Origin: a virus
IMG/VR virus record: IMGVR_UViG_3300030328_002097
Coordinates: 1-43,726 of that record
Reading direction: 5' to 3' (one strand)
DNA: 43,726 nucleotides
Part shown: piece after piece, positions 4,766 through 43,726 of the stretch
Layout: the number at the start of each line of letters is the position of its first letter
Position numbering within the stretch: the first letter of the stretch is position 1
The notes under the pieces: model-generated
The model's database searches: none
Told to the model about the DNA's origin: nothing
What the model saw: the letters and a program-made list of their open reading frames with translations, nothing else
Translations under genes and position numbers: made by a program

Positions 4766-5009
4766 TAATTACATAATAGTAGAAAATATAAAAAGAGAAC
4801 CTAAAAAGATCGCTGGTTTAATATTAACAGAAGATGTGGACAGTGACAATAGGTATATAAGGGCTAAGGTTATTTCAGTAGGAAACTTAGTTGAAGGAAT
4901 AGAAGATAATGATACCGTTTATTATGATAAACACGCTGGACACGGTATACAATATAAAGATATATTATATCACGTTATTATATCAAGAGACGTGGTATTA
5001 ATAGATTAA
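4752..5009 (+). CDS. groES: Phage co-chaperonin GroES
   Basis: This 85-residue Cpn10-fold protein would cap the GroEL ring. It reads as the standard order: N-terminal strand (VNNYIIVENI), mobile loop with the GroEL-contacting hydrophobic tripeptide region (KKIAGLILTE, compare GGIVLTG in bacteria), core strands (AKVISVGN) and a C-terminal barrel (DTVYYDKHAGHGIQYKDILYHVIISRDVVLID). It is slightly shorter than bacterial GroES (about 97), with a reduced roof hairpin. The gene starts inside groEL, overlapping 14 bases in another frame, so the order is groEL-groES, the reverse of the usual bacterial operon, and translation is probably coupled. Confidence 0.93.
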   Translation: MKAVNNYIIVENIKREPKKIAGLILTEDVDSDNRYIRAKVISVGNLVEGIEDNDTVYYDKHAGHGIQYKDILYHVIISRDVVLID

Positions 5010-5080
5010 CCAAAACCATAACCCACAAACCTTAAACAAAAAACGAAAACAAATTATTAATTAACAAAAAAAACAAAATC
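5010..5080 (+). promoter_or_regulatory. A/C-rich leader between groES and the next gene
   Basis: This 71-base gap, among the longest in the window, is composed almost entirely of A and C with a central AATTATTAATTAA. It has no T-tract and no convincing -10/-35 pair. It ends in ACAAAAAAAACAAAATC immediately before ATG 5081, with A at -3 and no Shine-Dalgarno sequence, an unstructured translation-enhancing leader of the Bacteroidota type (inference). Confidence 0.4.
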
Positions 5081-5452
5081 ATGAAATTAATGAAAATTGA
5101 AACGGTAACATCTGATGCTATCGTTGCTAACACAGGAACAATTCTTAATGTAGATGTAGACAATTTAGAAGTAAACATTGGTGCTACTGCAACTACTACA
5201 ACTTTAGTTGGTCCTTGGGGTACTATGACATTTACTGTTGATGGTACTGATGCGGCAGAAAAACTTTTAAATTGCTCAAAAATTGGAGTATATCTTGCTG
5301 AAAGAATAGCTGAACTTAGTGGTGATAAAGCTCATTCTAAACAAACGATATTTAACTTAATTCCATCAATAGCTGAGTTTCATACTAAAACTGGAATAGT
5401 TCATACTGGTGGTACGGCTAACACTGCTTTAGTATCAACTGCTTTAAGTTAA
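5081..5452 (+). CDS. Small beta-rich protein, putative virion component
   Basis: This 123-residue protein of unknown function is unlike its basic neighbours. It is Thr/Ala/Gly-rich, near neutral and predicted from pattern to be beta in the first half (MKIETVTSDAIVANTGTILNVDV, then a Thr run and LVGPWGTMTFTVDGTD) with an amphipathic helix in the middle (EKLLNCSKIGVYLAERIAEL). It has a long dedicated leader, suggesting strong expression. Such small Thr/Gly-rich proteins in phages are often capsid decoration or fibre components, but no recognisable motif proves this here. Confidence 0.75.
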   Translation: MKLMKIETVTSDAIVANTGTILNVDVDNLEVNIGATATTTTLVGPWGTMTFTVDGTDAAEKLLNCSKIGVYLAERIAELSGDKAHSKQTIFNLIPSIAEFHTKTGIVHTGGTANTALVSTALS

Positions 5453-5455
5453 TAG

Positions 5456-5896
5456 TTGAGATTAACCGCGCAAGATTTGCGTGAAATGAATATCCTTAAG
5501 TATTACAGGCTCACTAGAAAGTGGGTCTGTAAAACTTACGGATTAAAAGACGCAGATTTAGAATTATTAATTTATTTAGATTGTAAAGAAAGATTTACAC
5601 GACAAGAGTTTTTAGATGGTACTTACACGTACTCATGGGATAAAAACAGATGGGAGAGACTAAGAAGAGATGGTTGGATAGAAACATGGAGACATAGAAA
5701 CCGTACTACTATTAAATATAGTATTTTCAAAACATCTTTTAAATGCTCTCAAATGATAAGTAGAATTTACAGAATACTTTTAGGCGAAGAGGATATGCCT
5801 ACGTCAGATAGAAGTGTTTTTTACAATAACAAATCATATACAGATAAGGTTTACAACAAAGCTATTGATGATATGATTAAAGATAAAGAAAGATAA
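5456..5896 (+). CDS. Putative winged-helix (MarR-like) protein
   Basis: This 146-residue protein's middle looks like a winged helix-turn-helix: helix LEDA-like segment DADLELLIYLDCKERFTRQEF, a recognition helix SWDKNRWERLRRDGWIETW, then a basic wing RHRNRTTIKYSIF. A C-terminal helix (CSQMISRIYRILLGEEDMP) could dimerise. Marine phages commonly carry a protein of this type; the DNA-binding role is inferred from pattern. The start is uncertain: TTG 5456, three bases after the previous stop, or ATG 5486 (MNILKYYRL). The close spacing favours translational coupling and TTG, but ATG gives a more usual start. Confidence 0.75.
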   Translation: MRLTAQDLREMNILKYYRLTRKWVCKTYGLKDADLELLIYLDCKERFTRQEFLDGTYTYSWDKNRWERLRRDGWIETWRHRNRTTIKYSIFKTSFKCSQMISRIYRILLGEEDMPTSDRSVFYNNKSYTDKVYNKAIDDMIKDKER

Positions 5897-21612: not shown

Positions 21613-24600
21613 ATGCCAGAGTTATCTAACAGCTTTAGAGCTGGGAAAATGAATAAAGATCTCGATGAGAGATTAGTATCGAATGGTGAGTATAGAGACG
21701 CGTTAAACATAGAAGTTACAACATCTGAGGGTTCAAACGTAGGTACTGCACAAACCATACTAGGTAATAGACAAGTTACATCATTACTGTCTAGACGCCT
21801 CGTGAATTGTGTTGATACAGATTCTGATGGTACTCTTGACTCTCCAGTTTTTATGGAACCAATTAACCATACAGTTGGGCATATTGTAGATGAAAAGGTT
21901 GATAGGATAATACGTTTTGTTTCTTCACCACCTAGTCAAAATGGAGGTGTTGGAATAGATAGAATAATGGAATACAATACAGATATTAGAGTTAACGCTA
22001 CAGAAATACCTATATTTGTTGATGTGTACAATGTACAATGTAACGTTTCAGCAGGAACCTCAACAAGTTTTACAGTAAACACTAATTCTCAATATCTAAG
22101 AGAGGGTATGAAGTTTAAACTTGAAGATGCTTCTGGTAACGCTACAGCTTTTACTTATGCCTTAGATTTAATAATAGACACTATAACATATACTATCGAC
22201 GCTAGTTGTGATTGTGATTTTTGTTATACAGCAGAAATAACATGGAAATATAGTAATGGAGAGTCGTACACACCATCTACAAACCCAGCTTCTGGTTATA
22301 CAGCTTATTTCAAATCACCTAGAGTTTTAAATTTTGATAACGCTGATGCTGGATCAAACGGTATTGCTAGACCAAATTCTATAACAGGTATAAACATCGT
22401 AGATGACATGTTGTTTTGGACAGATGATTATTCTGAGCCTAAAAAAATACACATACCAAGATCTAAGGAAGGTACTGTGGATTATGTTATGGGACCTTAT
22501 ACTAGCACTTGTTCTGGCGCGGGTACAGTAGTAGTTAAAGCACATGAAAGACATACAGCTTTAGTAGTTAAAGACATAAACTCTCCTACTAAAACTGATT
22601 TAATATTTGGCACTTATACTTTAAAGCCTAATCAAGCAATAACTAGATATGCTCTAGCTATAACAGAAGAACATATAACTGTTATTAGAAAAGGACCAAC
22701 AATGCCACCAACAATAGAAACTTTTAAAACTTCTGATGTTGATAACGATGTTGCTGGTTCAGAGCTACCTGCTGTTGTTAATACTCAAACTCAAATACTA
22801 TTAGCAACAAATATAAACAATGCTAATGTACCTTGGTCTACAACTCCTCCTAACTCAACTAGTTCTTTTGTTTTTGATGAATATCCAGGTTATCAAGCTG
22901 GCGCGCCAATAACGTCGTTCGAGATAGGAGATTTATTAAAATTTACAGTATCTTATACTAATTCAGTTGGTTTATATCAAACAGCAGAAATGGTGTGTAC
23001 CGTTGATACTGTTGGTCCTGGAACTGGAACTAATACTGGTGTGATTATGCAAGCTGGACAATATGAGGTTTATATAAACTCAATGTCATCTAACCATCCG
23101 GTTAATCCACCTTCACCAACAAAAGCAAATTATTTTTTATATGATATTGAGGTAATAGAGAAAAAACCTATGTGGGAAATGAAATTTCCTAGGTTTGCTT
23201 ATAGATATAAATACTCAGATGGGGAATACTCTGTTTTTAGTCCTTTTTCTGACGTAGCTTTTGTACCTGAACCTTTTGATTATTTACCTAAAAAAGGTTA
23301 TAATATAGGTATGCAAAATAACTTAAGATATTTAGAAATTAGTGATTGGGTACCAAAAGATATTCCTAAAGACGTTGTTCAAGTTGATCTTATATACAAA
23401 GAAAGTAGTAGTCCAAATACATATACGGTAGAAAGTTTTAAACCAAATGATTTACCAGCCCCTGGACAATCGGTAAATTATTGGAATCAAAAAGGAACTA
23501 AATCATCAGCCTTTAACACAGGTATAGATAGATCTGCGCACGCTCATTCCGGATCATTTAAAGTAACATCAGATTTAATACACGCTACGATACCAGCAAA
23601 TCAATTGTTACGTCCTTGGGACAACGTACCTAGAAAAGCTATAGCACAAGAAGTTACTGGAAACCGTATAGTATATGCTAATTATCTACAAAATTACGAT
23701 CTATATGATTCTGGAGGAAATACAATTCCAAAACCAGAGTTTGAATTATCAATAGATTCTGTAAATCATAATCATCAATTATTTACAAAACATGGTATAC
23801 CTGGAAAATCTTTAAAATCAATGCGTAACTATCAGTTAGGTGTTGTTTATAGAGATAATTATGGTAGAGAAACTCCTGTATTAACTTCTCAATCTGGTAC
23901 TATAAAAATACCAAAAGACAATGCTGGTTCATACAATAAGATCGCAGCTAAAATCACAACTCCAGCTCCCGCTTGGGCAAAATCCTTTAAATTTTTCATA
24001 AAAGAAACTTCTAACGAATTTTATAATTTAGCTATGGATAGATATTATCCTGCTAAAGATGGTAATGTTTGGTTATCCTTTCCTTCAGCAGAAAGAAATA
24101 AAGTTAGTGAAGATACATTTTTGATACTTAAAAAAGAACACAACAATCATAATGCTGTTACTGAAAAAGCTAGATATAAAGTAATAGCTATAGAGAATAA
24201 TGCACCTGACTTTATAAAAACAGAAAACCAACCTTGGGGAGCTATAACACCAAACCCTAGTTTCGTGGATTCTGGAACACCTTATACAGGGAAGCAAAAT
24301 GTTGAAATTGATTTAGATCAATGGAATAATAGTGCTTTTGGAGGTTTAGTAACACAAAACGTTGGTGGTATACAAATAAAAGTTAGAACTTCGCGAGGTG
24401 ATTACGAATCTTTATGGTATGATGTAACAAACGTAGGTACTGTAAACTATGGTACAAAAAGTGTTAAAAGATTAACTGTTAAAAATGTTTTTGGAGAAGA
24501 CATGGAGTTTACATCAGAAGATGGTGGTGTAACAATGGAACCTAATCTAGTATTAGAAGTTAGACAAAAGAAAGTTGTAAATAAAGCTCAATTTGACGGT

Positions 24601-27600
24601 AGATTTTTTGTAAAAATACAAAGTGATTCTACTTTAGAAAAAAGATTACAGTCTGCGTGGGGTAATGAAGATGCAGAATTAATACCTTTAATATCTAAGA
24701 AAATATCACAAATGAACTACTGTTCTCCAGGTGGTAAAAATTTGCGTCATTTTAATGATTGGGATAATTTTGGTGCAGACGGTGGTAGTGGTGGAAATTC
24801 TACTGGTTCTGTAAACGGTTCTGGTGTAGGTAATGGTGGTTTTCAGTGGTGTGCTCAACATGGTTGGAGTGGTGATACTAATTACGCGGCAGGATACTCA
24901 GTGCCTTTAAAACAAGGCACATTTGCTTACACTGGAATAAAAGGTTCTACAAATCCTAGAACTATAAACGCTGGTTCAAATGGATCGCAAGCAATGTATC
25001 AAGACCCGTATTTTCCAGCGGAAATGCAACCCATGATTCTTCCTCATGGCTCTAGATGGAATACACAATATTGTAATAATTCTCCAGGACCATCTGGTGG
25101 AACTTGGTATGAGTTAGGTCATGCTACTTGTGGTAGTTCTACCTCTTCGTGTCCTTATCATAAAAATAGCCCACCTCATAAACCAGCAGATCAAACTAAT
25201 GGTCCTTGGAAAGGTGAGGGATCAAGTTATCCAGGACGTACACCAAGAGGATCTACTAGTTGGGGATCAAATTACTCAGGTATTTGGTCAGTTTGGACAA
25301 GAAATCCAGTAGGTGGTATGTTGTATGAATACTGTGATAATATAGGGGGTACATGTGGGTCAAAAAGTTTTGGTGAACAAATAGGATTTTTAGGTTTGGG
25401 TACATTTGCGGATAATGAAGGATCTACAACTGACGTACTTGATCTAAGTGGAACTGCTAGTAATCCAACCGGTTATAATGGTGGTAACACTATAATTCTA
25501 GATGCCGCTGGTAATCCAGCTGGTATGGATACTTTAGGTAGTTATTTTGATGACGAAATATTAGGTGCTACTGGTTATTGGGGTAGAGCCTGGTTAAGAA
25601 GCCAATGGGTTCACGGTAGTAATCCTACAGCAATAGAAGATTATCCAACACCATACAGAAGACCAGCACCAAATTCACCTAGTTCTTCTGGACCTGGCTC
25701 TGGTATAACTCAAACACAATCGTTTACGCAAGGTGAACACGCTTATCCTCCTCAAGATGAGGTTAATAAATGGGTTGATTGGTATTGTACACAAAATAAA
25801 CATTGTAATCCTAATTATGGTTGTGATGGAGATATGACATGTTGTGGTTGTACTTCAGGAACTGAGGTTTCTGGATATTGGGATCAACCAGCAAATGAAC
25901 AACATTGGGTGTTTGGAAACGAAACAGCAAAACAATACAAGCAAAGACCAGAGCCGAATATAGAATTACCTAGAGTGTATAGAGAAAATCAATTTCCACT
26001 TAATTTTCCTAGAAAGTCAATAGTACACCCACCTGTAGATTGGTGGCATGACTGGTGGACTGCAAGTGGTATGTTTAACTCTCTAACAAAACCATCTGAC
26101 GTGGTACTGTCTAAACCTGATGGTACGCAAAATACTTCAACTTTTGGAAAGAGTAAAAGATATGGTACTACTCCAACTCCAAAAGATGATCCTGGTAAAA
26201 GATGGTTTATAGACCACGTTGGAGCAGCACAAGATAAATGTGGTGCAGGAATATTTAATGATTCCACAACAGGTATTGGTAATATACAGATTTCATTTAT
26301 TGGGGTTGGTACTGGTAGTATTGATAATACCGTTTGGAATATGTCTGAGACACCTACTGAGATGGGGTTTGCGGACGCTATTTCTACACCTGGTACTAGA
26401 TTTAGATTTAAAGAAGATCATAATCAAACTGTTTATACAATAACATCATCTATGGTAAGTACAGATGGTGATCCTGGAAGTGTAAACCCAGAAGATGGAA
26501 AACCGATATATAGTCCAACACCTTGGAACGAAAATCCTGAAATATTAAATTTTGAAAACGATTCGGAAAAACCAGAGTATTGGCAGAAACTAAATAGAAG
26601 AATAAGATGGAAGTTAACTCTTGATAAACCTATTGGTGAGGCTGGTTCGTCTGGAGATGTACAACCTTATTATCACCCTTTAAATAATGCTGTGGACCCA
26701 CGTTTAATCGATACTTATGGAGATCACGAAACAAACCCTATGTATAACCCATATGGATTAACAACTGGACATCCTGGGGAGGCGTATGGTAAAGCAGCTG
26801 TAAATGTTGATGGAGCGGTTGTTGGAAAAGTAATAACACTAGACGAATACATGCAAAAAGGAACTTGTAGTACCGGCTCTACACACACAGAAACAGCGTG
26901 TGATTCAGCTGGTGGTACTTGGACAGCTTGGGCAAACGAGGATAGATGGCAAGCTACACATAACCTAGCTATTGGTCAAACGCTTTTAGGTGATTTAGGA
27001 ACCGCTTCTGACGCTAAATATAATGGTGTAAATATAGACCCTGTTAATGATTATGAAATAACAATAGAAGATATAGATGATGATGGAGATCAAACTGTTA
27101 TATATTTAAACAAATCGATAACAGTAGCTAATAATGCTACTTTAAGTTTTAGAAACGATCCCGCGCACGTTAAATCTTTTGAACTACAAGGATCTAGCAA
27201 CTACACGGGTGCTAATTTTAATGATACAGGTAGAAATTACCAGTGTTCTAACTGGGCATCACAAACCTGTAATCTACACTGGATTAGAGATTATAGATAT
27301 ACGTTTAGTATCACTACTGTGGCTGGTAGTGATTTAGTAACACACTCATCATCAACAACTATGACCCCCGCGTCAAATTCAAAAATAGCTGAGGGAGATA
27401 CTGTTTCCCACGGTAATGTTCATAGAAATTCTTATATAGTAGAAAAACTAACAAGCGGCGTGGCGTTTAGAATGAATAGACCAGCTTTAGCATCTGGTAC
27501 CGTTACAGCAGTTTTTTATAGACCAGGTTTTACAGGTTTAAACGAATGGGGATTAAATTATCAAACAATTGAAATACTAACTTCTTTTGACGATACTGGT

Positions 27601-30198
27601 AGTGAATCTGATTTACCAATGAGTCCTAATCCAGCTATATGGGAAACAGAACCTAGAGAAGATTTAGGAATGGATATATATTACGAAACAGGACAAGCGT
27701 ATCCAGTAAAACTAGAAGTTGGAACAGCTGAAGAATATATAAAAGTTGGAGATAGTGTAACAGGAGCCGGTATAGCTCCAGATACATATGTAGAGTCCGT
27801 ACATGGTAATATGATAACATTATCTGAGCAAACTACTTCGGTGCTTTCTTCAGGTCAAGATATTTCTTTTAAAGAATCAGTATTTAGAGGTGATGGTTCA
27901 ATAGAATCAAGAAACACTAAAGAAGCTCAGTGTGATGGAAGTGCTAGTGGTGTGTATACGATAAAATTAAAACCAAACGTACATGATCAAAAAAGAACTT
28001 TAAAATATTTTAATTGTTTTTCTTTTATGAACGGTGTTGAATCTAATAGATTAAGAGACGATTACAACGCCGTTACGATTGATAAGGGTGTTAAAGCGTC
28101 TATGCCTATGGCTACACCTTATGAAGCTGAAAGAAGAAAATCTGGATTAATATTCTCTGGTATATATAATTCTACTAGTGGTGTAAATGAAACAAATCAA
28201 TTTATACAAGCAGAACCTATTACTAAAGATTTAAATCCAGTACACGGAGCTATACAAAAAATATTTGCTAGAGATACAGATTTAGTTACGTTTTGTGAAG
28301 ACAAAGTATTTAAAATATTAGCTAATAAAGACGCTGTATTTAGTGCTGGTGGAAACGCTAATATAACAGCTACAAATAAAGTGTTAGGACAAACTATACC
28401 ATTTTCAGGAGATTATGGTATGTCTGATAGAACATCGTTTGCAGAGGAATCCTTTAGAATGTACTTCGTGGATAAAAACAGAGGAGCTGTATTAAGATTA
28501 TCAAGAGACGGTATGACACCTATATCAAATTACGGAATGAAAGATTACTTCTTTGATAATTTAAAAGGATATCAAAAAATAATAGGTAGTTTTAATGACA
28601 GAAAAGAGATATATAATCTAACGTTAGATGATTCATGGACAGAAGATCCAAAAACAATAAGTTACACAGAAGATACTAGAGGCTGGGTTAGTTTTAAATC
28701 TTTTATTCCTGAAGGAGGTTGTGGTTTTAACAATAATTATTATACATTTAGTAACGGTGAAATATGGAGACATCATTATGAAAAATGTGTAACAGTTAAT
28801 GCTAGAATGGATGTTAATAATAGTCATGGAAATAGTGTAACTGTATCTAGTTTACCAATAGAATTATATAGTAATACAGATAGGTTTGATTTTGCAACTA
28901 TGAATTACGGTGTAGGAGGTTTATTTTGGGCTGTTAGTGGTGAAGGAATAAATTCAGGAACATATATGACGGGTGTTATAGTAACTTACGACGGTTGTAC
29001 AGAAGCTTATTCTATTTCGTTTAACCAAGAAGTTTTCTTAAAATCTGACTCTACACTAACGCTGTGTGCTCCTAGAAATAATTTCTATCAAGTACAGTAT
29101 GATTCTGCTATCAACGTTCTTTTAAACCAAGGACCAGATACTATAAAAGCTTTTTCTACAATGAAATATGAAGGTTCTCAAGCAATGGTAAAAGCAAAAG
29201 AAAGAGATAGATTTGGCGGAGGATATACAACTGGTAATTCTACCCAAACATATTATATAGATTGTAATCATAACGCGGAAACATGGCAGAGCAACGAAGG
29301 TGGTGCTGGTTTTTGGGGTGATGGAAATTATTATAACAATGTTGAGAAACCTGGTTGGTATATTAGTCGTATAGAGACAGATCAACAAAAAGGTAAAGTT
29401 AAAGATTTCAAAAATAAAGAAGGTAAGTGGTTTAACTATATAATAGGTAATAAAAGAAATGAAGATTTATCACAAGAGAAATTGGATACTAGAGAGTTCT
29501 CTCTTCAAGGTTTAGATTTACACGAATGCGTAACTGCTTTTGAGATTAAAGAGTATGATTTAAGAATAGCTTTAAAACTACCACATAATACTGTTAACAG
29601 TACTTACTGGTCAGACGTAGATGTGTGGGTAAAAAACAATATAGATGAGCTGTATTGGACTGATCTTAATAGTACCTTAGGATATAGAGGTTTAGGTGGT
29701 AATACAACAGTACAACTAGAAAGCAATCCAACGGTAGATTATCATTTATCTAAACATGAAGAAAACGAAGTTATAAGTGTGTACGATAATTTACCTTGGG
29801 TTACATTTTTAATACAACCTAATCAAGGATTTTACATACACGCTTTATCATATGGTGTTGCTGGAGGAGAAGTATTAAATACAGACCCACAAGGACAATG
29901 GGTGGAATGGGAAGGTGGTGCAGCTGGTCTTGCTAGCCCTAGCAGAAACTTTAAAAACGTTATCACAAACTACCATCCAGTGTACGATGTTGAAAACATG
30001 ATATTAGAAAAAACATTTAAAATCAAATTCGAAAACACAACAAGTGGTTGGGAAGCTGACAATAAAGTTAGGGTAACTGTTTTCTTAAAAAGTGTACCTT
30101 CAACTAACAAGCAACCAGAATTAGAATATCTAGAACCTATAATAATAGGAGATGCTACTAATTTAAACAAAACTACTTCTTGGGATGGAATAGCATAA
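21613..30198 (+). CDS. Giant tail nozzle/stabilization-type protein
   Basis: The 2861-residue protein's N-terminus, FRAGKMNKDLDERLVSNGEY followed by RDALNIEV and GTAQTILGN, is typical of the stabilization/nozzle-type proteins of short-tailed marine phages and their crAss-like relatives (T7 gp12/P22 gp10 role). The C-terminal half has propeller-like repeats (AIQKIFARDTDLVTFCEDKV, FKILANKDAVF, RMYFVDKNRGAVLRLSRDGM) consistent with this. Inserted at about residues 1037-1450 is a Gly/Ser/Asn/Trp-rich, Cys-rich region with a cluster at C1392, C1398, C1404, C1410, C1411 and C1413. A CSTGSTHTETAC pair lies at 1752/1763, and a CDCDFC motif at 199-204. It is much longer than T7 gp12 (about 800), so receptor-binding or glycan-related insertions are likely. 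Confidence 0.85.
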   Translation: MPELSNSFRAGKMNKDLDERLVSNGEYRDALNIEVTTSEGSNVGTAQTILGNRQVTSLLSRRLVNCVDTDSDGTLDSPVFMEPINHTVGHIVDEKVDRIIRFVSSPPSQNGGVGIDRIMEYNTDIRVNATEIPIFVDVYNVQCNVSAGTSTSFTVNTNSQYLREGMKFKLEDASGNATAFTYALDLIIDTITYTIDASCDCDFCYTAEITWKYSNGESYTPSTNPASGYTAYFKSPRVLNFDNADAGSNGIARPNSITGINIVDDMLFWTDDYSEPKKIHIPRSKEGTVDYVMGPYTSTCSGAGTVVVKAHERHTALVVKDINSPTKTDLIFGTYTLKPNQAITRYALAITEEHITVIRKGPTMPPTIETFKTSDVDNDVAGSELPAVVNTQTQILLATNINNANVPWSTTPPNSTSSFVFDEYPGYQAGAPITSFEIGDLLKFTVSYTNSVGLYQTAEMVCTVDTVGPGTGTNTGVIMQAGQYEVYINSMSSNHPVNPPSPTKANYFLYDIEVIEKKPMWEMKFPRFAYRYKYSDGEYSVFSPFSDVAFVPEPFDYLPKKGYNIGMQNNLRYLEISDWVPKDIPKDVVQVDLIYKESSSPNTYTVESFKPNDLPAPGQSVNYWNQKGTKSSAFNTGIDRSAHAHSGSFKVTSDLIHATIPANQLLRPWDNVPRKAIAQEVTGNRIVYANYLQNYDLYDSGGNTIPKPEFELSIDSVNHNHQLFTKHGIPGKSLKSMRNYQLGVVYRDNYGRETPVLTSQSGTIKIPKDNAGSYNKIAAKITTPAPAWAKSFKFFIKETSNEFYNLAMDRYYPAKDGNVWLSFPSAERNKVSEDTFLILKKEHNNHNAVTEKARYKVIAIENNAPDFIKTENQPWGAITPNPSFVDSGTPYTGKQNVEIDLDQWNNSAFGGLVTQNVGGIQIKVRTSRGDYESLWYDVTNVGTVNYGTKSVKRLTVKNVFGEDMEFTSEDGGVTMEPNLVLEVRQKKVVNKAQFDGRFFVKIQSDSTLEKRLQSAWGNEDAELIPLISKKISQMNYCSPGGKNLRHFNDWDNFGADGGSGGNSTGSVNGSGVGNGGFQWCAQHGWSGDTNYAAGYSVPLKQGTFAYTGIKGSTNPRTINAGSNGSQAMYQDPYFPAEMQPMILPHGSRWNTQYCNNSPGPSGGTWYELGHATCGSSTSSCPYHKNSPPHKPADQTNGPWKGEGSSYPGRTPRGSTSWGSNYSGIWSVWTRNPVGGMLYEYCDNIGGTCGSKSFGEQIGFLGLGTFADNEGSTTDVLDLSGTASNPTGYNGGNTIILDAAGNPAGMDTLGSYFDDEILGATGYWGRAWLRSQWVHGSNPTAIEDYPTPYRRPAPNSPSSSGPGSGITQTQSFTQGEHAYPPQDEVNKWVDWYCTQNKHCNPNYGCDGDMTCCGCTSGTEVSGYWDQPANEQHWVFGNETAKQYKQRPEPNIELPRVYRENQFPLNFPRKSIVHPPVDWWHDWWTASGMFNSLTKPSDVVLSKPDGTQNTSTFGKSKRYGTTPTPKDDPGKRWFIDHVGAAQDKCGAGIFNDSTTGIGNIQISFIGVGTGSIDNTVWNMSETPTEMGFADAISTPGTRFRFKEDHNQTVYTITSSMVSTDGDPGSVNPEDGKPIYSPTPWNENPEILNFENDSEKPEYWQKLNRRIRWKLTLDKPIGEAGSSGDVQPYYHPLNNAVDPRLIDTYGDHETNPMYNPYGLTTGHPGEAYGKAAVNVDGAVVGKVITLDEYMQKGTCSTGSTHTETACDSAGGTWTAWANEDRWQATHNLAIGQTLLGDLGTASDAKYNGVNIDPVNDYEITIEDIDDDGDQTVIYLNKSITVANNATLSFRNDPAHVKSFELQGSSNYTGANFNDTGRNYQCSNWASQTCNLHWIRDYRYTFSITTVAGSDLVTHSSSTTMTPASNSKIAEGDTVSHGNVHRNSYIVEKLTSGVAFRMNRPALASGTVTAVFYRPGFTGLNEWGLNYQTIEILTSFDDTGSESDLPMSPNPAIWETEPREDLGMDIYYETGQAYPVKLEVGTAEEYIKVGDSVTGAGIAPDTYVESVHGNMITLSEQTTSVLSSGQDISFKESVFRGDGSIESRNTKEAQCDGSASGVYTIKLKPNVHDQKRTLKYFNCFSFMNGVESNRLRDDYNAVTIDKGVKASMPMATPYEAERRKSGLIFSGIYNSTSGVNETNQFIQAEPITKDLNPVHGAIQKIFARDTDLVTFCEDKVFKILANKDAVFSAGGNANITATNKVLGQTIPFSGDYGMSDRTSFAEESFRMYFVDKNRGAVLRLSRDGMTPISNYGMKDYFFDNLKGYQKIIGSFNDRKEIYNLTLDDSWTEDPKTISYTEDTRGWVSFKSFIPEGGCGFNNNYYTFSNGEIWRHHYEKCVTVNARMDVNNSHGNSVTVSSLPIELYSNTDRFDFATMNYGVGGLFWAVSGEGINSGTYMTGVIVTYDGCTEAYSISFNQEVFLKSDSTLTLCAPRNNFYQVQYDSAINVLLNQGPDTIKAFSTMKYEGSQAMVKAKERDRFGGGYTTGNSTQTYYIDCNHNAETWQSNEGGAGFWGDGNYYNNVEKPGWYISRIETDQQKGKVKDFKNKEGKWFNYIIGNKRNEDLSQEKLDTREFSLQGLDLHECVTAFEIKEYDLRIALKLPHNTVNSTYWSDVDVWVKNNIDELYWTDLNSTLGYRGLGGNTTVQLESNPTVDYHLSKHEENEVISVYDNLPWVTFLIQPNQGFYIHALSYGVAGGEVLNTDPQGQWVEWEGGAAGLASPSRNFKNVITNYHPVYDVENMILEKTFKIKFENTTSGWEADNKVRVTVFLKSVPSTNKQPELEYLEPIIIGDATNLNKTTSWDGIA

Positions 30199-34961: not shown

Positions 34962-37900
34962 ATGACTACTGAGCAAAGAAAAGAAATTAATGTGTTGGCT
35001 AAATCGCTAGAAGACAAAGGTAAGTCTTTTGGTGAGATACAATCTATTCTTAAAAAAAAGATGGATAGTTTTAGTTCTCCACTTAAGCATGGTGATCAAC
35101 CTGGGCATCCTCCATTAGTTGTGAATGCAGAGACTCACGAAGCTTTTCATAATCAATTTAAAGCTGGTATTGTAGACGAGCATGGAGGAGAGTGGTTGCA
35201 AAATGGGTACACGAGAGAGAAGAATAAAGAGAAAGTATATGGAACAGTAGATGGCGTTCCTTATTATGATCAAAAATCATACGAAAAAGCTTATCAAGGT
35301 AGTCAAGATCAATTTAACGCTATAGTTCCACCTTCTATAAGAAACTACGATCCATACACTAAAACAACTAAGAAAGAGGAAGACCCATATCAGTTTTTAC
35401 AATCCCAACAATATGATCCCAAAACAGGTAAAAGTATTACAAAAAAAACAAAATCACCAAGTGATGATCTTAATTCTAGTATTAATAATTTAGTAAATTC
35501 CACATCTGTAAAAGGTAGAAAAGAAAACGAAGACAAAGATTCTGAGTGGAAAAAAATTCAAAAAGAAAACGAAAAAAATCTAAATAAAAATCAAAAGAAA
35601 GCTTCTCAAAGTTTAATTTCTAAAGGAATAAATCCAGATAAATTTGAGGTTTATGGTGGTGATTTTTGGATGGTAGAAAAAGATTCTAAAGGAAAAGTTC
35701 TTAGAAGAATAGAAAGAGTAGATCCTACTTCAAGTTTGCATTCAGATTTAGCTAGTTATAACTCAGGGTTTACGCATTCATCTATTTTTAAAGATGTAAT
35801 GAAGGACGCTAATAGATTACAACCTAATCAAGGTCAAATAAACGAAATTAAAGAAAAAGCTAGTAATTGGATAGATACATACCACGAGTATGAGGATGCG
35901 ATGAAAAGTGAACATAATCAAAGATTGTTACAGGAGATACCGATGGATGTTGATGCTACGTACGTGACTCCAACAATCCCACCAGGGTGGAAAGTAGGTG
36001 ATCCTATACCAATGCCAGAAGAAACCGAATACGATAAGTTGAAAAGTTTACAAAATAGAGCTGGTAGATTTTATAGACAGAAAAACAACGAAGGATACTA
36101 TATTGGTAATAGTGCGACGGGCAACGATTGGATGGATGATCATTACAAAAGAGCAGTAAAGGAAATAAAACAAAAATACCCTATTGCTGCTACTATGAAA
36201 GATTTTAATGACCAGTTTCGTGACGAAATAAAGGAATTAGCTATAAGTTATATTATACAGGGTGAAAGTAATGATATAATAGAAAGAAATTCAATTTCAC
36301 AAAAAAGTGGTAAATATGGTAAGTGGGTTGAAGATGATTTTAATAAAGAAATAATTGATGATTTTATAAAAGATTTAGACGCGGGTAAAAGTCCAGAAAC
36401 AATAAAACATCAGTTAAACCTAAAACCTGGATCAAAAGCAGAAGAGTATCTTAATGTTAATCTTGCTTACAAAGAACAAGAAGCTCATTTAAAAGATATA
36501 AAGTTTAGATCAGAAAAGTTATCGGCAGATCTTAGTAATACCGTAAGTGGGTTAGAGAGTTTGGTTAATGGAGATGAGCATAAGAGAATACAAGAGTTAA
36601 GAAAAGAAAGCGAAGGAATTCTTCAAGATTATAAAGATGGTAAATTTACCACTAAAGAACAGATAGAATCAGCTAGAGCTATTATAGAAAGAAATAACAG
36701 TGAAATTACAAAAGCTGGAGAAAATTACAAAACACTTAGTAGAACATATAAAAGTCTATCGAAGTCTGTTGATTTGTTAAGAAACGAAAACTCAATTGCT
36801 CAAGACAATATATTAGATTTCCACACGTTTAAAGATGTACTAGGTAAAGATCATGGTGTTCTTTCTGGGTCGGTAGATTTACTAGGAGCAGCTGCTCTTA
36901 ACATGTTTACAAGCTTAGAGGAGTGGACACATACCGCGCCTTATTTACCTACAACATATGCTTGGGATTTAATTGAGATGATACCTGGTGTTGAAGAAAA
37001 CGTGGAAGCATGGAGAACTGACATGAACAACGCTGCTGCGGAAATTAGAGAGGGTGTTGGTAGAAAAACTTGGGACGAAGCTCAAAGTTGGACAGACTAC
37101 GTACACTACGGTACTAACACGTTGTTTGAAGCAGCACCTCAAATAGCAACAATATTACTCACAAAAAGACCTGTGGGTATGTCTTTAATGTTTGGTAACG
37201 TAACTGGCCAAGATTATATAGTAAACAAAAACGCTTTTCACGACGGAGAAATATCATGGTCACAATATCATAGTTCAGCAAACTTAAAAGGAGCATGGGA
37301 ACTTATTACAGAGATACCTACCTTTGGATATGCAGGAGCGTTAAAACAAAGCTTAAAGCAAGCTTCCAAAACAGGATTTAGACAAACATTTGTTAATTCA
37401 TTTGCTCAACAAATAAAACCAAAAGCATTATTTAATGGATCTAAAACCGTGTTTGGAGAGGGGTTAAGTGAATACGCCGCTGGACTTGGACACCAATATG
37501 TAGATAAATTCGTATTAAAAGACGATAGTGTTGTTATAGGAGAAGGTTTAGATGAGGATTTTAGAACAGGAGCTCTTGTTGGTTTTGCATATTTTAGATT
37601 ACCACAATTTGGTGTTAACCTACTTAGAAGTCATCAAAGTAAAAGATCAACAGAACAAAGAGATGCTAATATAGATAGAATAGAGGAGTTAACTAAAATG
37701 TTGTTGAATCCTAGTTTAGAAAATAATTTAAGACAAAGCTACAAACAAGAAATAGAAAGTCTTACAGCTACAAACTTTAATATATTAAAAAAAGATATAG
37801 AAAGAATAGATTACTATAGTAAGGAAGAAAAAGAAAAACTTACAGAGATTGAAGTTGCTAAATCTAATATTAGAAATAAAGTAAAAAGTATTAAGTTAGA

Positions 37901-40900
37901 TAAGACAATATCTAAGGCTAATAAAAGTAAAGAGATTGATAAGTTGTTTAATGAATTTTCTGAATTAGATGGTAAGAAAGAGGAGTTAATAAGTAAATAT
38001 GATTTCAAATTAAAACAAAAGGTAGAAGAAGAAGCAAACTTCCAGTCGGTTAAAAAAGGATCTAAAGAAATATTTGGTGATAACATGGAAGTTATCAGTA
38101 CTAGTTCTAGAATTGAGCAAGCAGAGTTATTAGAGAGAAATCTACACGAAAGAAAAATAGCGTTAATATCTAAATTTGAAATGCAGAACACGCCCTTAAC
38201 AGAACAGGCTGCTGCAGAAATAAAAAGTATTAACAACGAGTTACAAAAAGTAAGGAATCTAAAAGAAGATCCTAATCAAGAAAGTATAGTCGGAGGTGCT
38301 TTAGGTGCTTATGGGTATATAACACCAAAAGATGCTAATGGAACACAGCAACTTATTATAAATAGAAAAGCACCGATTGAAGATGGTTTTGTTACAACAG
38401 CTCAACATGAGTTTTTACATGGTGTACTACACGAAACATTAAAAAACGATGAGGCTGTTCAGGAATCTGTAGGAGAGGCTTTGCAAGATTATTTAGGAGA
38501 TATAACAACAGGTAGTTTAGCAGAAACTCAACTAGCAAGTAGGATGATGCAATATATGGATGCTGGTACTGGTGTTTTTAACGAAGAGGCTATGGTATTG
38601 TTATCGGAAGCTATGGTTAAAGAGAACCTACCGTTTAAAGAAAGTATGTTTCAACCTGTACAAGACACTTTAAGAAGAGTATTTCAAAACTATTTAGGTA
38701 AAGATATAGAGTTTAATACAGGTAAAGATGTTTTTAACTTTATAAAAGATTATAATCACTCTGTTAAAACCGGTAAATGGGATAATGCTATTCGTAGAAT
38801 GGCTAGACAAGGTGCAAAAGGAAAATTAATTCCAGATAGTATTTCTAAAGCAGGAAGAGTTAAGCTATCCAAACAAGCCTCTGATAATGTTCAAAATATT
38901 TACAATGAAAGGGGAGAGGCTGGTATACAAGATATATTAAACGAATACAAACCTATGGTTGGTAAAATCGTTCAAAAATATAGAGAAGTACCTGGTTTCG
39001 ATGCTGAATTATTAGCTAGTGAAATAGAGCTTGGTCACAGAGGTATATATGATTTAGTTAGAGATTATAAACCAGAAACTGGAGTTCCTTTAGCTGCTTA
39101 TATAAATAAGTTTTTACCATCTAGAGCTATAGATGCCGCTAAAAGAGTTCTTAAAACAGAATTTGAAGCAGACGTTACAGAAGCAAGAGGATTAGCGGTT
39201 GAAGAGACAGCTGTAGAAGATGTTGAAGTACCAAAAAAGAAAATAAAACTTGCAGATAGATTAGGTAAAGATGCGGTCAAAATAAATAGAGAGGTTAAAA
39301 AATCTATTCCAGATTTAAAAGATTTAAATTTTAAAAACCTAAAAGACCTAACACCTAGTTTAACTCAAGAAATGTTTGGTATAGTTCCTAAACCTGGTAA
39401 TTTAACTAAAGTAGATGTTAAAAATGCCCAAATGTTTATTAATAAAAACGCAGATACTTTACTAGCAATGCTACCAGAAGGAGCTACTAGTGGTGGAACA
39501 TCTACAGGTGTTCAAAAAGTTTTACTAGACGCTTTTTATACAAAAACAGATAGAGCTAGTATGGCTAAAACAGGTACTAAAGCTGGGTTAGCTATTCAAA
39601 TAAAAAGAGATAATATAAACGTACCAGAATTTTTAGAAGTATTTGGTATAACAGAAAGAGGTCAACCAAATCTATATAAAAAAGATAGTAACACTAGTGC
39701 TAGAATAAAAGCTTTAGTAGCGCAGACTGGTAAAATGCTAACTAATCAAGCTGTTAGAGAAGAAATAGCAAAAAGAGGTAATGTTAGTGACAATGTAAGA
39801 TTATCTTTAGAAGATGGAAAATCAGTTTACATGTTTAGTAGGTCTGGAATTGATAGTAAATATCCAGAGTTTGTTCAAGAAGTTCTTATGTCTAACTACA
39901 ACGATAAGAAATCTGTTGCAAACGCGGTTGATAGAATTTACAAAGACGACTTAACTAAAAAACAAATGGGTTCTTTAGTTAATAAAGTTTATGATCAAAT
40001 AAAAGATTATAACAAGATATTAAAAAAACATAGTAATCCAGAGGGTAAATCTATAGAACTACCAAAAACTATAGAAGAATTTTTACTTGACGAATGGATA
40101 GGGGAAAATACAGATTATGCTATTAAAGAAGCTTTAATAAATGTGTTACCTTTAGATAAAAATGGAAGAGTTATAAACGTTGGTACTCATTTTTTAAATA
40201 AAGATAGAGTTATAAAACAAAGATCAATACCTGTAGATTTAGGACTTGAGTTTGTTAAAGACATGGGTGTTCCTGGAGCTGCACAATATTTGTTAAAATA
40301 TTTTAAAGGTATGTATGCTGGGGCTTCTGGTATAGCCGATAAAAGATATATTTTTAGAGACGGAGAGCTTATAGATAATCCAAACTTTGATCCAAATACA
40401 AAATCTACAAATAGAAAACAAGTGTTTGAAAGTGTCCCTGATTTTGTAGAAAACGTTATAGGTAAAATTGGAGTTGATGTATATAATAAAGATGGTAGTG
40501 TTAAATCTATAAATCAACTAGAAAAAGAACTTAATATAAACACAACGTTACTAACAGAAAGTAGTGATGCTGCTTTACGAGATATGAATTTTGAAGGTAG
40601 AGAGATTCAAGCATTAGAAACTAGAGAGGCTATAGAAAAGTTAATGGATTTTGCTTGGAAAAAAGTATCTAGTAAAAATCCAAGTTTAGATTATGCTGAT
40701 TTAGGAATGTTAATTACTAGCATGGGTTCTGGAATGTCATCTATAATGCGTAGAGGTGCGAATTTCAAATACTTAGGAGAAAGTGTTTTAGAAGTACCTA
40801 GAGCAGAAAGAGGTAAAAAGTTAGAATACGAACACATGATACCTCAAGTTCAAATGGCGTTAAGAGTTTTAAAAAGCTACATGAACAACGGTAGTTTAGA

Positions 40901-43726
40901 TCCTAATGTTTGGGAAGGTTATAACGTTGCTGTTATACGTAAAACTATGGATAAGGTTTTAGTAGAAAATAAACTACGTAGTAAAAGACCAGAAGGACAA
41001 CATCCTTATTATAATATGAGTACTTTTGGAGACAAAAGAATGGAATCTATAAGAAGTATCGATCCTAAAGATAAAGGAACTGATGGAGAGTTTATTGGTA
41101 GAGATTTTGTTAAAGCTAGCAATATAATGAACGGTACAAATAAAGATATGCAAGACCTTGGAGCTCTTCGTAGAGCATATAAGATGTCGCGTATAGTTAA
41201 CAAACCTAACAAGGGTATGAGTGTTTGGGATTTAGACGATACCTTAGCTAGAACTAAGTCGGGTGTTAGATACACAATGCCAAATCCAGACGGATCACCA
41301 CAACCTGGTAGAAAAGTTATATTCTTAGCTGGAGGAGCTGGTAGTGGTAAATCTAATGTTGTTAATAAACTAGGTTTAGAAAAACAAGGTTTTAAAATAG
41401 TAAATCAAGACATAGCTTTAGAATGGTTAAAGAAAAACCATGGTTTACCAGAGAATATGAATGATTTAACTCAAAAACAAGCTTCACAATTGGGTAAATT
41501 AACTTGGGAAGCTAGAAGAATAGCTACTAGAAAGTTAATGAAATACAAAGGTAGAGGTGATGGTATAGTAGTAGATGGTACTGGTGGTTCATTAAAAAAC
41601 ATGCAAAAGCAAGTTGATGAATTTAGAGCTAAAGGATACGATGTACAGATGTTATTTGTTGAGACTTCTCTTGAAACGGCTTTAGAAAGAAATCGTAATA
41701 GAAAAGAACGTTCTTTGAAAGATGGTATTGTAAAAGCAAACCACGAAAAAGTACAAGGTAATAAAGAGTCATTTAAAGAATTATTTGGTAATAACTTCGC
41801 AGAAGTTAAAACTGATAAATTAACAATGGACAGTCCAATGCCTTTAAAGCTAACAGAGCAAATGGATGGTTTTACTAGAGGATATATTAAGGGTAGATTA
41901 GACGCTGGAGAGTTTGCTCATAAAGGAGCTGATTTAGAAACTAAAAACGCTACATTTGATTTTTCTGAGTTTAATCAAATCATAGAAGGAGAGCAAGGAC
42001 CATTATTTGGGAAAGCTATTGATAGAGCTAAAAAATACGGATTAAAAGATCAATACATACTAACAGCTAGACCACACGCCGCTAAAATACCTATTTACGA
42101 GTTCTTAAAAGCTCAAGGATTAAATATACCTCTAGAAAATATTATAACACTAGAAAGCTCTACATCAGAATCTAAAGCTCTTTGGATAGCTGATATGGTT
42201 GGAGAAGGTTATAATGATATATATTTTGCTGACGATCATTTAGCTAATGTTCAAGCGGTAAAAAATATGTTAGATCAATTTGATGTTAAGTCGAAGGTTC
42301 AACAAGCTAAATACAAGTTTAGTAAAGATATGAACTTTAGATTCAATCAAATATTAGAAGAAACAAAAGGTATAAGATCTGAAACTAGATTCTCAGATGT
42401 TGTTGCTCAAAAACGTGGAGAGCATGTTGGTAAATGGAAATTCTTTATTCCACCATCAGCAGAGGATTTTAAAGGTTTAATTTATAATTTCTTAACAAAA
42501 GGAAAACGTGGAGATGAGCAAATGAAGTTTTTCCAAAAAGCTTTAATAGATCCATTTGGTAGAGCTATAAGAGAAATTAATTCGGCTAAACAAGCTATAA
42601 CACATGATTATAGAAAACTAAAGAAGGAATTTCCTAACGTAAGAAAGAAACTTGGTAAACCTATTCCTAATACTAGCTTTACTTATGATCATGCTATTAG
42701 AGCTTATCTTTGGAATGATTTAGGTATGGAAATACCTGGTCTTAGTGTTAGAGACACAAAAACACTTATTGAGACTGTTGCTAACGATCCAGAATTAAAA
42801 GCTTTTTCACAGGTGTTAGGTAAAATATCAAAACAAGATCAAGGCTACGTACAGCCTAGTGATCATTGGGTTGTTGAAAGTATAGCTTCAGACTTAGATA
42901 ATATAACTAATAAAGTAGGAAGAAAAGACTATCTAGGTGAATGGATTGAAAATAAAAACATAATATTTTCTAAAGAAAATTTAAACAAAATAGAAGCTGT
43001 GTATGGTTCTAATTTTAGAGAAGCTTTAGAAGATATATTATACCGTATGGAAAACGGTACTAATAGACAACAAGGGCAAAGTAGATTAACAAATATGTTC
43101 TCTAACTGGGTTAATAATTCTGTTGGTGCTATAATGTTCTTCAATGCTAGATCTGCTACGTTACAGTTATTATCTACTGTTAACTTTATAAATTGGAGTG
43201 ATAACAATATATTTAAAGCATCAGCAGCATTTGCTAATCAACCTCAGTACTGGAAAGATTTTGCTATGATATTTAATTCTGACATGTTGAAACAAAGACG
43301 TGCTGGATTAAAGACAGATGTAAATGAATCTGAAATAGCAAACGCTGTTGCTAATTCTAAAAACAAAGCAAAAGCAGCTTTAGCTTGGTTACTTAAAAAA
43401 GGGTTTTTACCTACACAAATAGCGGATAGTTTCGCTATTGCTTCTGGTGGTTCTACTTTCTATAGAAATAGAGTAAATAAATATTTAAAAGAAGGAATAC
43501 CTCAACAGCAGGCCGAGTCTAAAGCTTTTGAAGATTTCCAACAAATAGCAGAGGAAACACAACAGTCTTCTAGACCTGATTTAATATCTCAGCAACAAGC
43601 GTCTCCTCTTGGTAGATTAATATTAGCTTTTCAAAATACACCTATGCAGTACGCTAGATTAATGAAAAAAGCGGCAACTGATTTAGTTAAAGGAAGAGGT
43701 GATTGGAAAACAAATGTTTCTAGAAT
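34962..43726 (+). CDS. Giant polyvalent protein (partial at the right edge)
   Basis: An open frame of 2921 codons runs without a stop to the window end, so the full protein is larger. It starts MTTEQRKEINVL, with an SSPLKHG element at about residues 38-44 resembling the second half of the accessory-block tag. In order it shows long coiled-coil stretches (about 480-620), short hydrophobic patches (about 632-652 and 714-731), a HEFLH zincin motif (1149-1153), a sigma-70 region-2-like stretch (about 1331-1395), a charged linker, an EYEHMIPQ element near 1957, a HAD/P-loop kinase unit (2087-2430) and a C-terminal ARSATLQLLSTVNFINW region, typical of polyvalent proteins that are injected with phage or conjugative-element DNA. 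Such proteins are thought to act in the new host cell early in infection. The boundary of each module is inferred. Confidence 0.9.
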   Translation, partial: MTTEQRKEINVLAKSLEDKGKSFGEIQSILKKKMDSFSSPLKHGDQPGHPPLVVNAETHEAFHNQFKAGIVDEHGGEWLQNGYTREKNKEKVYGTVDGVPYYDQKSYEKAYQGSQDQFNAIVPPSIRNYDPYTKTTKKEEDPYQFLQSQQYDPKTGKSITKKTKSPSDDLNSSINNLVNSTSVKGRKENEDKDSEWKKIQKENEKNLNKNQKKASQSLISKGINPDKFEVYGGDFWMVEKDSKGKVLRRIERVDPTSSLHSDLASYNSGFTHSSIFKDVMKDANRLQPNQGQINEIKEKASNWIDTYHEYEDAMKSEHNQRLLQEIPMDVDATYVTPTIPPGWKVGDPIPMPEETEYDKLKSLQNRAGRFYRQKNNEGYYIGNSATGNDWMDDHYKRAVKEIKQKYPIAATMKDFNDQFRDEIKELAISYIIQGESNDIIERNSISQKSGKYGKWVEDDFNKEIIDDFIKDLDAGKSPETIKHQLNLKPGSKAEEYLNVNLAYKEQEAHLKDIKFRSEKLSADLSNTVSGLESLVNGDEHKRIQELRKESEGILQDYKDGKFTTKEQIESARAIIERNNSEITKAGENYKTLSRTYKSLSKSVDLLRNENSIAQDNILDFHTFKDVLGKDHGVLSGSVDLLGAAALNMFTSLEEWTHTAPYLPTTYAWDLIEMIPGVEENVEAWRTDMNNAAAEIREGVGRKTWDEAQSWTDYVHYGTNTLFEAAPQIATILLTKRPVGMSLMFGNVTGQDYIVNKNAFHDGEISWSQYHSSANLKGAWELITEIPTFGYAGALKQSLKQASKTGFRQTFVNSFAQQIKPKALFNGSKTVFGEGLSEYAAGLGHQYVDKFVLKDDSVVIGEGLDEDFRTGALVGFAYFRLPQFGVNLLRSHQSKRSTEQRDANIDRIEELTKMLLNPSLENNLRQSYKQEIESLTATNFNILKKDIERIDYYSKEEKEKLTEIEVAKSNIRNKVKSIKLDKTISKANKSKEIDKLFNEFSELDGKKEELISKYDFKLKQKVEEEANFQSVKKGSKEIFGDNMEVISTSSRIEQAELLERNLHERKIALISKFEMQNTPLTEQAAAEIKSINNELQKVRNLKEDPNQESIVGGALGAYGYITPKDANGTQQLIINRKAPIEDGFVTTAQHEFLHGVLHETLKNDEAVQESVGEALQDYLGDITTGSLAETQLASRMMQYMDAGTGVFNEEAMVLLSEAMVKENLPFKESMFQPVQDTLRRVFQNYLGKDIEFNTGKDVFNFIKDYNHSVKTGKWDNAIRRMARQGAKGKLIPDSISKAGRVKLSKQASDNVQNIYNERGEAGIQDILNEYKPMVGKIVQKYREVPGFDAELLASEIELGHRGIYDLVRDYKPETGVPLAAYINKFLPSRAIDAAKRVLKTEFEADVTEARGLAVEETAVEDVEVPKKKIKLADRLGKDAVKINREVKKSIPDLKDLNFKNLKDLTPSLTQEMFGIVPKPGNLTKVDVKNAQMFINKNADTLLAMLPEGATSGGTSTGVQKVLLDAFYTKTDRASMAKTGTKAGLAIQIKRDNINVPEFLEVFGITERGQPNLYKKDSNTSARIKALVAQTGKMLTNQAVREEIAKRGNVSDNVRLSLEDGKSVYMFSRSGIDSKYPEFVQEVLMSNYNDKKSVANAVDRIYKDDLTKKQMGSLVNKVYDQIKDYNKILKKHSNPEGKSIELPKTIEEFLLDEWIGENTDYAIKEALINVLPLDKNGRVINVGTHFLNKDRVIKQRSIPVDLGLEFVKDMGVPGAAQYLLKYFKGMYAGASGIADKRYIFRDGELIDNPNFDPNTKSTNRKQVFESVPDFVENVIGKIGVDVYNKDGSVKSINQLEKELNINTTLLTESSDAALRDMNFEGREIQALETREAIEKLMDFAWKKVSSKNPSLDYADLGMLITSMGSGMSSIMRRGANFKYLGESVLEVPRAERGKKLEYEHMIPQVQMALRVLKSYMNNGSLDPNVWEGYNVAVIRKTMDKVLVENKLRSKRPEGQHPYYNMSTFGDKRMESIRSIDPKDKGTDGEFIGRDFVKASNIMNGTNKDMQDLGALRRAYKMSRIVNKPNKGMSVWDLDDTLARTKSGVRYTMPNPDGSPQPGRKVIFLAGGAGSGKSNVVNKLGLEKQGFKIVNQDIALEWLKKNHGLPENMNDLTQKQASQLGKLTWEARRIATRKLMKYKGRGDGIVVDGTGGSLKNMQKQVDEFRAKGYDVQMLFVETSLETALERNRNRKERSLKDGIVKANHEKVQGNKESFKELFGNNFAEVKTDKLTMDSPMPLKLTEQMDGFTRGYIKGRLDAGEFAHKGADLETKNATFDFSEFNQIIEGEQGPLFGKAIDRAKKYGLKDQYILTARPHAAKIPIYEFLKAQGLNIPLENIITLESSTSESKALWIADMVGEGYNDIYFADDHLANVQAVKNMLDQFDVKSKVQQAKYKFSKDMNFRFNQILEETKGIRSETRFSDVVAQKRGEHVGKWKFFIPPSAEDFKGLIYNFLTKGKRGDEQMKFFQKALIDPFGRAIREINSAKQAITHDYRKLKKEFPNVRKKLGKPIPNTSFTYDHAIRAYLWNDLGMEIPGLSVRDTKTLIETVANDPELKAFSQVLGKISKQDQGYVQPSDHWVVESIASDLDNITNKVGRKDYLGEWIENKNIIFSKENLNKIEAVYGSNFREALEDILYRMENGTNRQQGQSRLTNMFSNWVNNSVGAIMFFNARSATLQLLSTVNFINWSDNNIFKASAAFANQPQYWKDFAMIFNSDMLKQRRAGLKTDVNESEIANAVANSKNKAKAALAWLLKKGFLPTQIADSFAIASGGSTFYRNRVNKYLKEGIPQQQAESKAFEDFQQIAEETQQSSRPDLISQQQASPLGRLILAFQNTPMQYARLMKKAATDLVKGRGDWKTNVSR
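38352..38560 (+). other. Zincin metallopeptidase-like module of the giant protein
   Basis: Residues about 1131-1200: strand LIINRKAPIEDGFVTTA leads into HEFLHGVLHETL, an HExxH helix (His1149, Glu1150, His1153) with a further His1157/Glu1158, then DEAVQESVGEALQDYLGD, where acidic residues could supply the third ligand. This is the arrangement of metallopeptidase domains in polyvalent proteins. Self-processing of the polyprotein or cleavage of a host protein are both possible. Confidence 0.7.
38952..39146 (+). other. Sigma-70 region 2-like module of the giant protein
   Basis: Residues about 1331-1395 read PMVGKIVQKYREV, then AELLASEIELGHRGIYDLVR, DYKPETGVPLAAYINKFLPS and RAIDAAKRVL. In sigma-70 region 2 the corresponding pattern is (D)LxQxGxxGLxRAVxxFDPxxGxxFSTYAxWWIRxAI. 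Matching features are a helix with an acidic start, Gly, Tyr/Leu, a Pro-x-x-Gly turn, a Tyr-Ile strand/helix and a final Arg-rich helix. The Trp pair for promoter melting is absent (INKFLPSRAI), so function is uncertain. Confidence 0.5.
41220..42281 (+). other. HAD phosphatase with inserted P-loop kinase (nested PNKP-like module)
   Basis: HAD motif I is SVWDLDDTLARTKS (Asp2090 and Asp2092); then, before motif II, a P-loop kinase unit: VIFLAGGAGSGKS (Walker A, Lys2130), NQDIALEW (Asp2150), VVDGTGG and an Arg-rich lid (ALERNRNRKER). HAD motifs II-IV follow: ILTARPH (Thr2368), ESKALWIADM (Lys2405) and IYFADDHLANVQ (Asp2424/Asp2425). The kinase part resembles zeta-toxin/polynucleotide 5'-kinases and the HAD part a 3'-phosphatase. 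Confidence 0.8.

Follow-up and report, generated by a model that had tools for sequence, protein, structure and literature searches.

Can a complete kinase be housed inside a phosphatase domain instead of standing beside it in the chain? The question is raised by a 43,726-nucleotide stretch of viral DNA (positions 1 to 43,726 of IMG/VR record IMGVR_UViG_3300030328_002097), which as a whole we call the window. A single open reading frame on the plus strand (34962–43724; 2,921 amino acids (aa)), still open at the 3′ end of the window, encodes HAD motif I, with a complete P-loop kinase between it and HAD motifs II, III and IV. An earlier note, made from the sequence alone, had called this frame, its motifs (DLDDT, GGAGSGKS, LTARP, K and ADDH) and their order, all of which are borne out by the translation. 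The span of 41220–42281 that it assigned does contain the module, although the last HAD strand ends slightly further, near 42305. That this is a real nesting of a complete kinase in a HAD phosphatase is, in our judgement, very nearly certain.

Architecture and conservation of the nested module

The first HAD segment (41211–41312, plus strand) comprises strand S1, motif I DLDDT (41229–41243), the squiggle and the first flap strand, GVRYTMP, as far as a PNPDG turn. The inserted kinase (41313–41879, plus strand; model residues 43–231), identified with Pfam, carries the Walker A motif GGAGSGKS (41331–41354), an NxD motif with its aspartate at 41409–41411, DGTG (41574–41585) and the lid R-N-x-x-R-x-E-R (41688–41711). 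The second HAD segment (41883–42305, plus strand), placed by its motifs and the model, resumes with the return flap strand YIKGRLD and continues through a small helical region, motif II LTARP (42060–42074), the motif III lysine (42174–42176) and motif IV ADDH (42228–42239) to the last strand. The kinase is significant by Pfam, as Zeta_toxin (5.7e-12; 45.9 bits against a cut-off of 22.3) and AAA_33 (7.1e-12). By sequence the HAD is weaker than the kinase: the part after the kinase matches phrog_415 at 2.4e-6. Of 17 HAD-only members, 13 match the same profile, which bears the name polynucleotide kinase, and all 17 match Pfam DUF2608 (best 8.3e-6).

These HAD-only relatives supply comparative evidence for the insertion. 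A first search through viral contigs, made with the module, returned 78 relatives, most of them with a complete HAD match and no kinase, and further scans brought the set to 162 distinct modules, that of the window included. The HAD stands without a kinase in 108, with motifs I and IV spaced 132 aa apart in 107 and 133 aa in one, and the kinase is nested in 50, with a spacing of 331 aa in 49 and 332 aa in one; the difference is exactly the 199 aa of kinase that lie between motifs I and IV. The kinase-less junction reads ..DDTLATTKSLVKFTAPDGTTG-TLNAEEYA.. and the nested junction ..DDTLARTKSGVRYTMPNPDG-[kinase]-GRLDAGEFA... The 50 nested modules come from many metagenomes and are frame-continuous, and the module is not a chance arrangement, because all of these distinct sequences share the same geometry. 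One relative (L063; spacing 268 aa) has a different domain at the same insertion point. In three others (L127, L131 and L132) the HAD is intact and the same kinase comes after it in the chain, an arrangement that suggests that the two domains are functionally paired.

Both predicted active sites are conserved. Among 161 aligned HADs (50 nested, 108 kinase-less and 3 in series), the D, D and T of motif I (DxDxT), the motif II threonine of LTAR, the motif III lysine of SKALW and the two aspartates of motif IV are invariant; together with the HAD-fold model described below, this invariance confirms the identity of the HAD. GGAGSGK, NxD, DGTG and the lid R-N-x-x-R-x-E-R are likewise invariant across the aligned kinases (52 of 52). 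Walker A ends in S in 26 of them and in G in the other 26 (GGAGSGKG, as in L006–L014), and by alignment GKG is also seen in active adenylate kinases. The ratio of nonsynonymous to synonymous substitution rates (dN/dS; Nei-Gojobori, 11 close pairs) is 0.05–0.17 for the kinase and 0.01–0.21 for the HAD. Therefore, purifying selection acts on kinase and HAD alike, and we predict with reasonable assurance that both domains are catalytically active.

AlphaFold models place the insertion in three dimensions. The HAD-only form (L021; mean predicted local distance difference test (pLDDT) 88.7, predicted template modelling score (pTM) 0.83) adopts a Rossmannoid fold with squiggle and flap, for which Foldseek returns phosphoserine phosphatase and others (best E 3.3e-4). 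Its flap strands, residues 24–27 and 33–36, are joined by a short turn. In the nested model (mean pLDDT 81.6, pTM 0.65), the secondary structure gives a first flap strand at 26–32, the kinase at 43–231 and the return strand at 233–239. By definition, a C1 cap is a domain inserted midway along the β-hairpin flap, between S1 and the next element (PMC8069645). In the models, the point of insertion of the kinase is the tip of this flap and as such the C1-cap site. We infer that the two flap strands pair in the nested model and that the two active sites face each other. The kinase-less relatives, the two models and the C1-cap definition thus strongly support the claim of the earlier note that the kinase occupies the place of the HAD cap, in contrast to polynucleotide kinase/phosphatases (Pnkp), whose two domains follow one another, and the structure prediction that the note had proposed yielded a HAD fold with the kinase emerging from the flap hairpin at that position. 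Sequence comparison and models together demonstrate the nesting, its precision and the conservation of the two predicted active sites.

History of the insertion

A quick, unrooted tree of the HADs was built with the kinase removed. The empty forms, L063 among them, make up one side of a branch with 99% support, the series forms are grouped by a branch with 100% support, and the four states require three changes, which is the minimum. Being unrooted, this tree is compatible both with a single gain of the kinase and with a gain followed by one loss. When the kinases themselves are placed in a tree, those in series lie among the nested ones (support 90 with L020), which moderately favours relocation of the kinase from the nested to the series position.

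Two further observations concern the flap and the surroundings of the module. The L063 insert (L063 4500–5500; also L164 and L237) is an unrelated domain of 136 aa at the HAD flap position; neither Pfam nor the PDB gave a match for it, the viral contigs contain no further example, and a guess that it is an ADP-ribosyltransferase was dropped. A short repeated stretch, VGKxxVDxTTKEGRxxxxxxE, forms a linker ahead of the in-series kinase in L127, L131 and L132 (near 4900–5700), and a similar stretch also follows that kinase in L127 and L131. The linker is present twice before the L063 HAD. Few frames among the 162 contain it, and it may be a sign of domain shuffling.

Candidate functions and their rivals

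We propose that a P-loop phosphotransferase of the AAA_33/zeta/polynucleotide-kinase group, set at the tip of the HAD flap within a giant protein, would cover the HAD site like a large cap. A substrate bound between kinase and HAD could then gain a phosphate at one position and lose one at another. Nucleic-acid ends or nucleotides, as in bacterial Pnkp1 and T4 Pnkp, would be the most probable class of substrate, and the module would serve early in infection, for the repair or remodelling of nucleic acid. A Foldseek search with the whole module ranks Pnkp1 (4xrp; 7.9e-8) first and T4 Pnkp (5e-7) next, with Clostridium thermocellum Pnkp, adenylate kinases and zeta at lower ranks. In the kinase, the equivalents of T4 D35 and R126, namely the NxD aspartate and a lid arginine, align and are invariant. 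By analogy with these enzymes, the end-healing role suggested in the earlier note is plausible, and the Foldseek order speaks for it.

A series of observations weighs against this proposal, and support for the end-healing role is weak. T4 R38 contacts the 3′ phosphate of the acceptor, and its equivalent here is Leu in 52 of 52 kinases, while the DGTG aspartate aligns one residue off T4 D85. A profile comparison with T4 Pnkp covered only 19 columns, with a probability of 6.5%. Pfam assigns the kinase to Zeta_toxin and AAA_33, and the HAD shows no particular likeness to that of Pnkp: searched alone with Foldseek, it matches phosphoserine phosphatase and Lem4 among others, with weak E-values and with Pnkp outside the top 50. 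The pTM of 0.65 leaves the orientation of the domains in the nested model uncertain. The HAD manages without the kinase in 108 relatives, and a second kinase copy was found elsewhere in none of 50 contigs of kinase-less relatives, which are partial; the positive control of this search recovered 44 of 45, the single miss being T4 itself. An RNA ligase partner was considered and rejected: T4-type RNA ligase PF09511 was not found, in a search without a working control, and PF09414 occurs in 3 of 43 contigs, the one checked with Pfam being an ATP-dependent DNA ligase. Considered by itself, a Pnkp-like nucleic-acid substrate has somewhat less than an even chance, and a zeta-like or other small-molecule role is nearly as likely.

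Among the larger nested contigs, one encodes an ATP-dependent DNA ligase, and a similar frame lies at the end of another contig. In a large contig of the nested type (L254, 2355–5583), genes for an NT5C-like nucleotidase, a sigma-70-like factor and an ATP-dependent DNA ligase lie close together.

The rival that survives best is a zeta-like small-molecule kinase, acting for example on UDP-sugars or nucleotides, that is injected and interferes with host metabolism or with the cell wall, with an independent HAD and a nesting that is an uncoupled accident of domain shuffling. Zeta_toxin is the top Pfam match of the kinase, zeta structures are among the Foldseek matches, and polyvalent phage proteins include zeta-like kinases for which a cell-wall role has been proposed (PMC5512222). 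The absence of T4 R38, the unrelated insert that takes the same slot in L063 and the persistence of the HAD without the kinase also fit this view. In contrast, Foldseek ranks zeta under Pnkp, C. thermocellum Pnkp and adenylate kinase, and the kinase recurs beside the HAD even when the two are in series. In its full form we consider this rival rather unlikely, though deserving of attention.

The insert of P-type ATPases binds nucleotide and offers a precedent for a nucleotide-binding insert. A second rival would have the inserted domain serve mainly as a structural or regulatory cap, with ATP binding gating the HAD site in the manner of that insert and no free substrate phosphorylated. The insertion lies at the C1-cap site, where P-type ATPase inserts are the known precedent (PMC8069645), and Walker A reads GKG instead of GKS/T in 26 of 52 kinases. 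However, no variation is seen in NxD, DGTG or the lid arginines, with which kinases catalyse the reaction and position the acceptor; GKG occurs in active adenylate kinases, and three relatives carry the kinase outside the cap. This rival is improbable. An assembly artefact or chance motif match, which might be suspected with metagenomic contigs and a frame that ends in an assembly gap past the window, is refuted by the census, with frame-continuous nesting in 50 distinct sequences under strong purifying selection, and has a negligible probability.

Taken as a whole, the explanation that we prefer, a nested two-enzyme module that is probably packaged in the virion and has a Pnkp-like substrate class, stands at about an even chance. 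More tentatively, the catalytic kinase may itself be the C1 cap, such that two opposed phosphoryl-transfer sites share one cleft, and the flap may be a plug-in slot that takes different domains (the kinase in 50, the 136-aa domain in L063 and nothing in 108), the kinase having also been moved to a series position; we regard this extension as an idea that is less likely to hold than to fail.

Packaging is suggested by the position of the gene. The giant frame is the last large gene, after a terminase–portal–structural block, and for this reason the protein is probably packaged in the virion and the module would be delivered with the genome. In the 49,503-base record the frame meets Ns soon past the end of the window. 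The phage family is uncultured and related to Flavobacterium and Cellulophaga phages; its terminase is nearest to that of an environmental podovirus (64%), followed by Flavobacterium elemo, Cellulophaga and Tenacibaculum phages at about 45%. The giant gene that elemo has at this position carries the annotation structural protein, with undetectable sequence similarity. The giant proteins of the elemo and Manatee Spring phages were accordingly set aside as homologues, being syntenic in position with no kinase, HAD or other detectable similarity. Besides the nested pair, no domain of the 2,921-aa protein reaches Pfam significance; below that level, a zinc-peptidase-like HEFLHG motif (38406–38423) and, by eye, a sigma-region-2-like stretch (38900–39300) are present. 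Elsewhere, the window encodes a GroEL-like chaperonin (3182–4765; phrog_5725, 5.4e-138) and, in the structural block, a second giant gene of 2,861 aa (21613–30198).

One phage protein family thus presents the same phosphatase empty, filled with a kinase, filled otherwise, or with the kinase in series, which amounts to a natural experiment in domain nesting. With these states side by side, it can be tested directly whether the two reactions become coupled once a kinase fills the HAD cap slot. If the module heals nucleic-acid ends, repair would arrive with the virion, ahead of any gene expression.

Comparison with known systems

C1 caps, fusions of P-loop kinases with HADs, and giant multidomain phage proteins are each already known. 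Polyvalent phage proteins are giant and multidomain, with zeta-like kinases among their listed domains (Iyer et al. 2017, PMC5512222), whereas that text has no mention of haloacid, phosphatase or polynucleotide kinase and no nested kinase. Standalone zeta/AAA_33 kinases of the marine myoviruses HTVC008M (AGE60463) and Melnitz (QZI95068), and also of Atu_ph07 (AUZ94865), belong to the same family as the nested kinase (33–41% identity) and share its GGxGSGK, NxD, DGTG and RN motifs. Unlike the nested kinase, they are free proteins of 220–270 aa or are fused to non-HAD regions, with no surrounding HAD. A pathway link through a NadR-like nucleotidyltransferase was rejected, as this gene adjoins the kinase only in HTVC008M and not at the other standalone loci.

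The possibility that cultured phages, plasmids or bacterial genomes already contain the nesting was also set aside: searches with the module and the HAD-only form of 50,697 phage records, 72,556 plasmids and the genomes of 84,980 species gave only matches to the kinase part or nothing, and the nested form was not found in them. BFVD holds three models at 59–62% identity, all from uncultured viruses and one named UDP-N-acetylglucosamine kinase. In the literature and collections searched, a scope that leaves most subscription papers and AlphaFold DB outside, we found no description of a complete kinase as a C1 insert or of a nested kinase–HAD, which falls short of proof of novelty.

The closest parallels in domain content are T4 Pnkp (PseT) and the bacterial Pnkp1 of the Pnkp1–Rnl–Hen1 complex (PMC4411300; PDB 4xrp), which likewise combine a P-loop kinase and a HAD in one chain. 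T4 Pnkp has a serial layout that begins with the kinase and reaches motif I near residue 165, and in Pnkp1 a short link joins the two domains (PMC4411300). Here, in contrast, motif I precedes the kinase, identity to T4 Pnkp and Pnkp1 is about 12–15%, and T4 R38 is replaced by Leu. The closest parallels in topology are the C1-capped HADs, including phosphoserine phosphatase, phosphoglycolate phosphatase and the P-type ATPases, the last named as a C1-capped class (PMC8069645), all of which likewise carry a separate domain in the flap hairpin after S1. While the known C1 caps are helical bundles or α+β caps, the domain that occupies this site here is an entire P-loop kinase whose catalytic residues are conserved.

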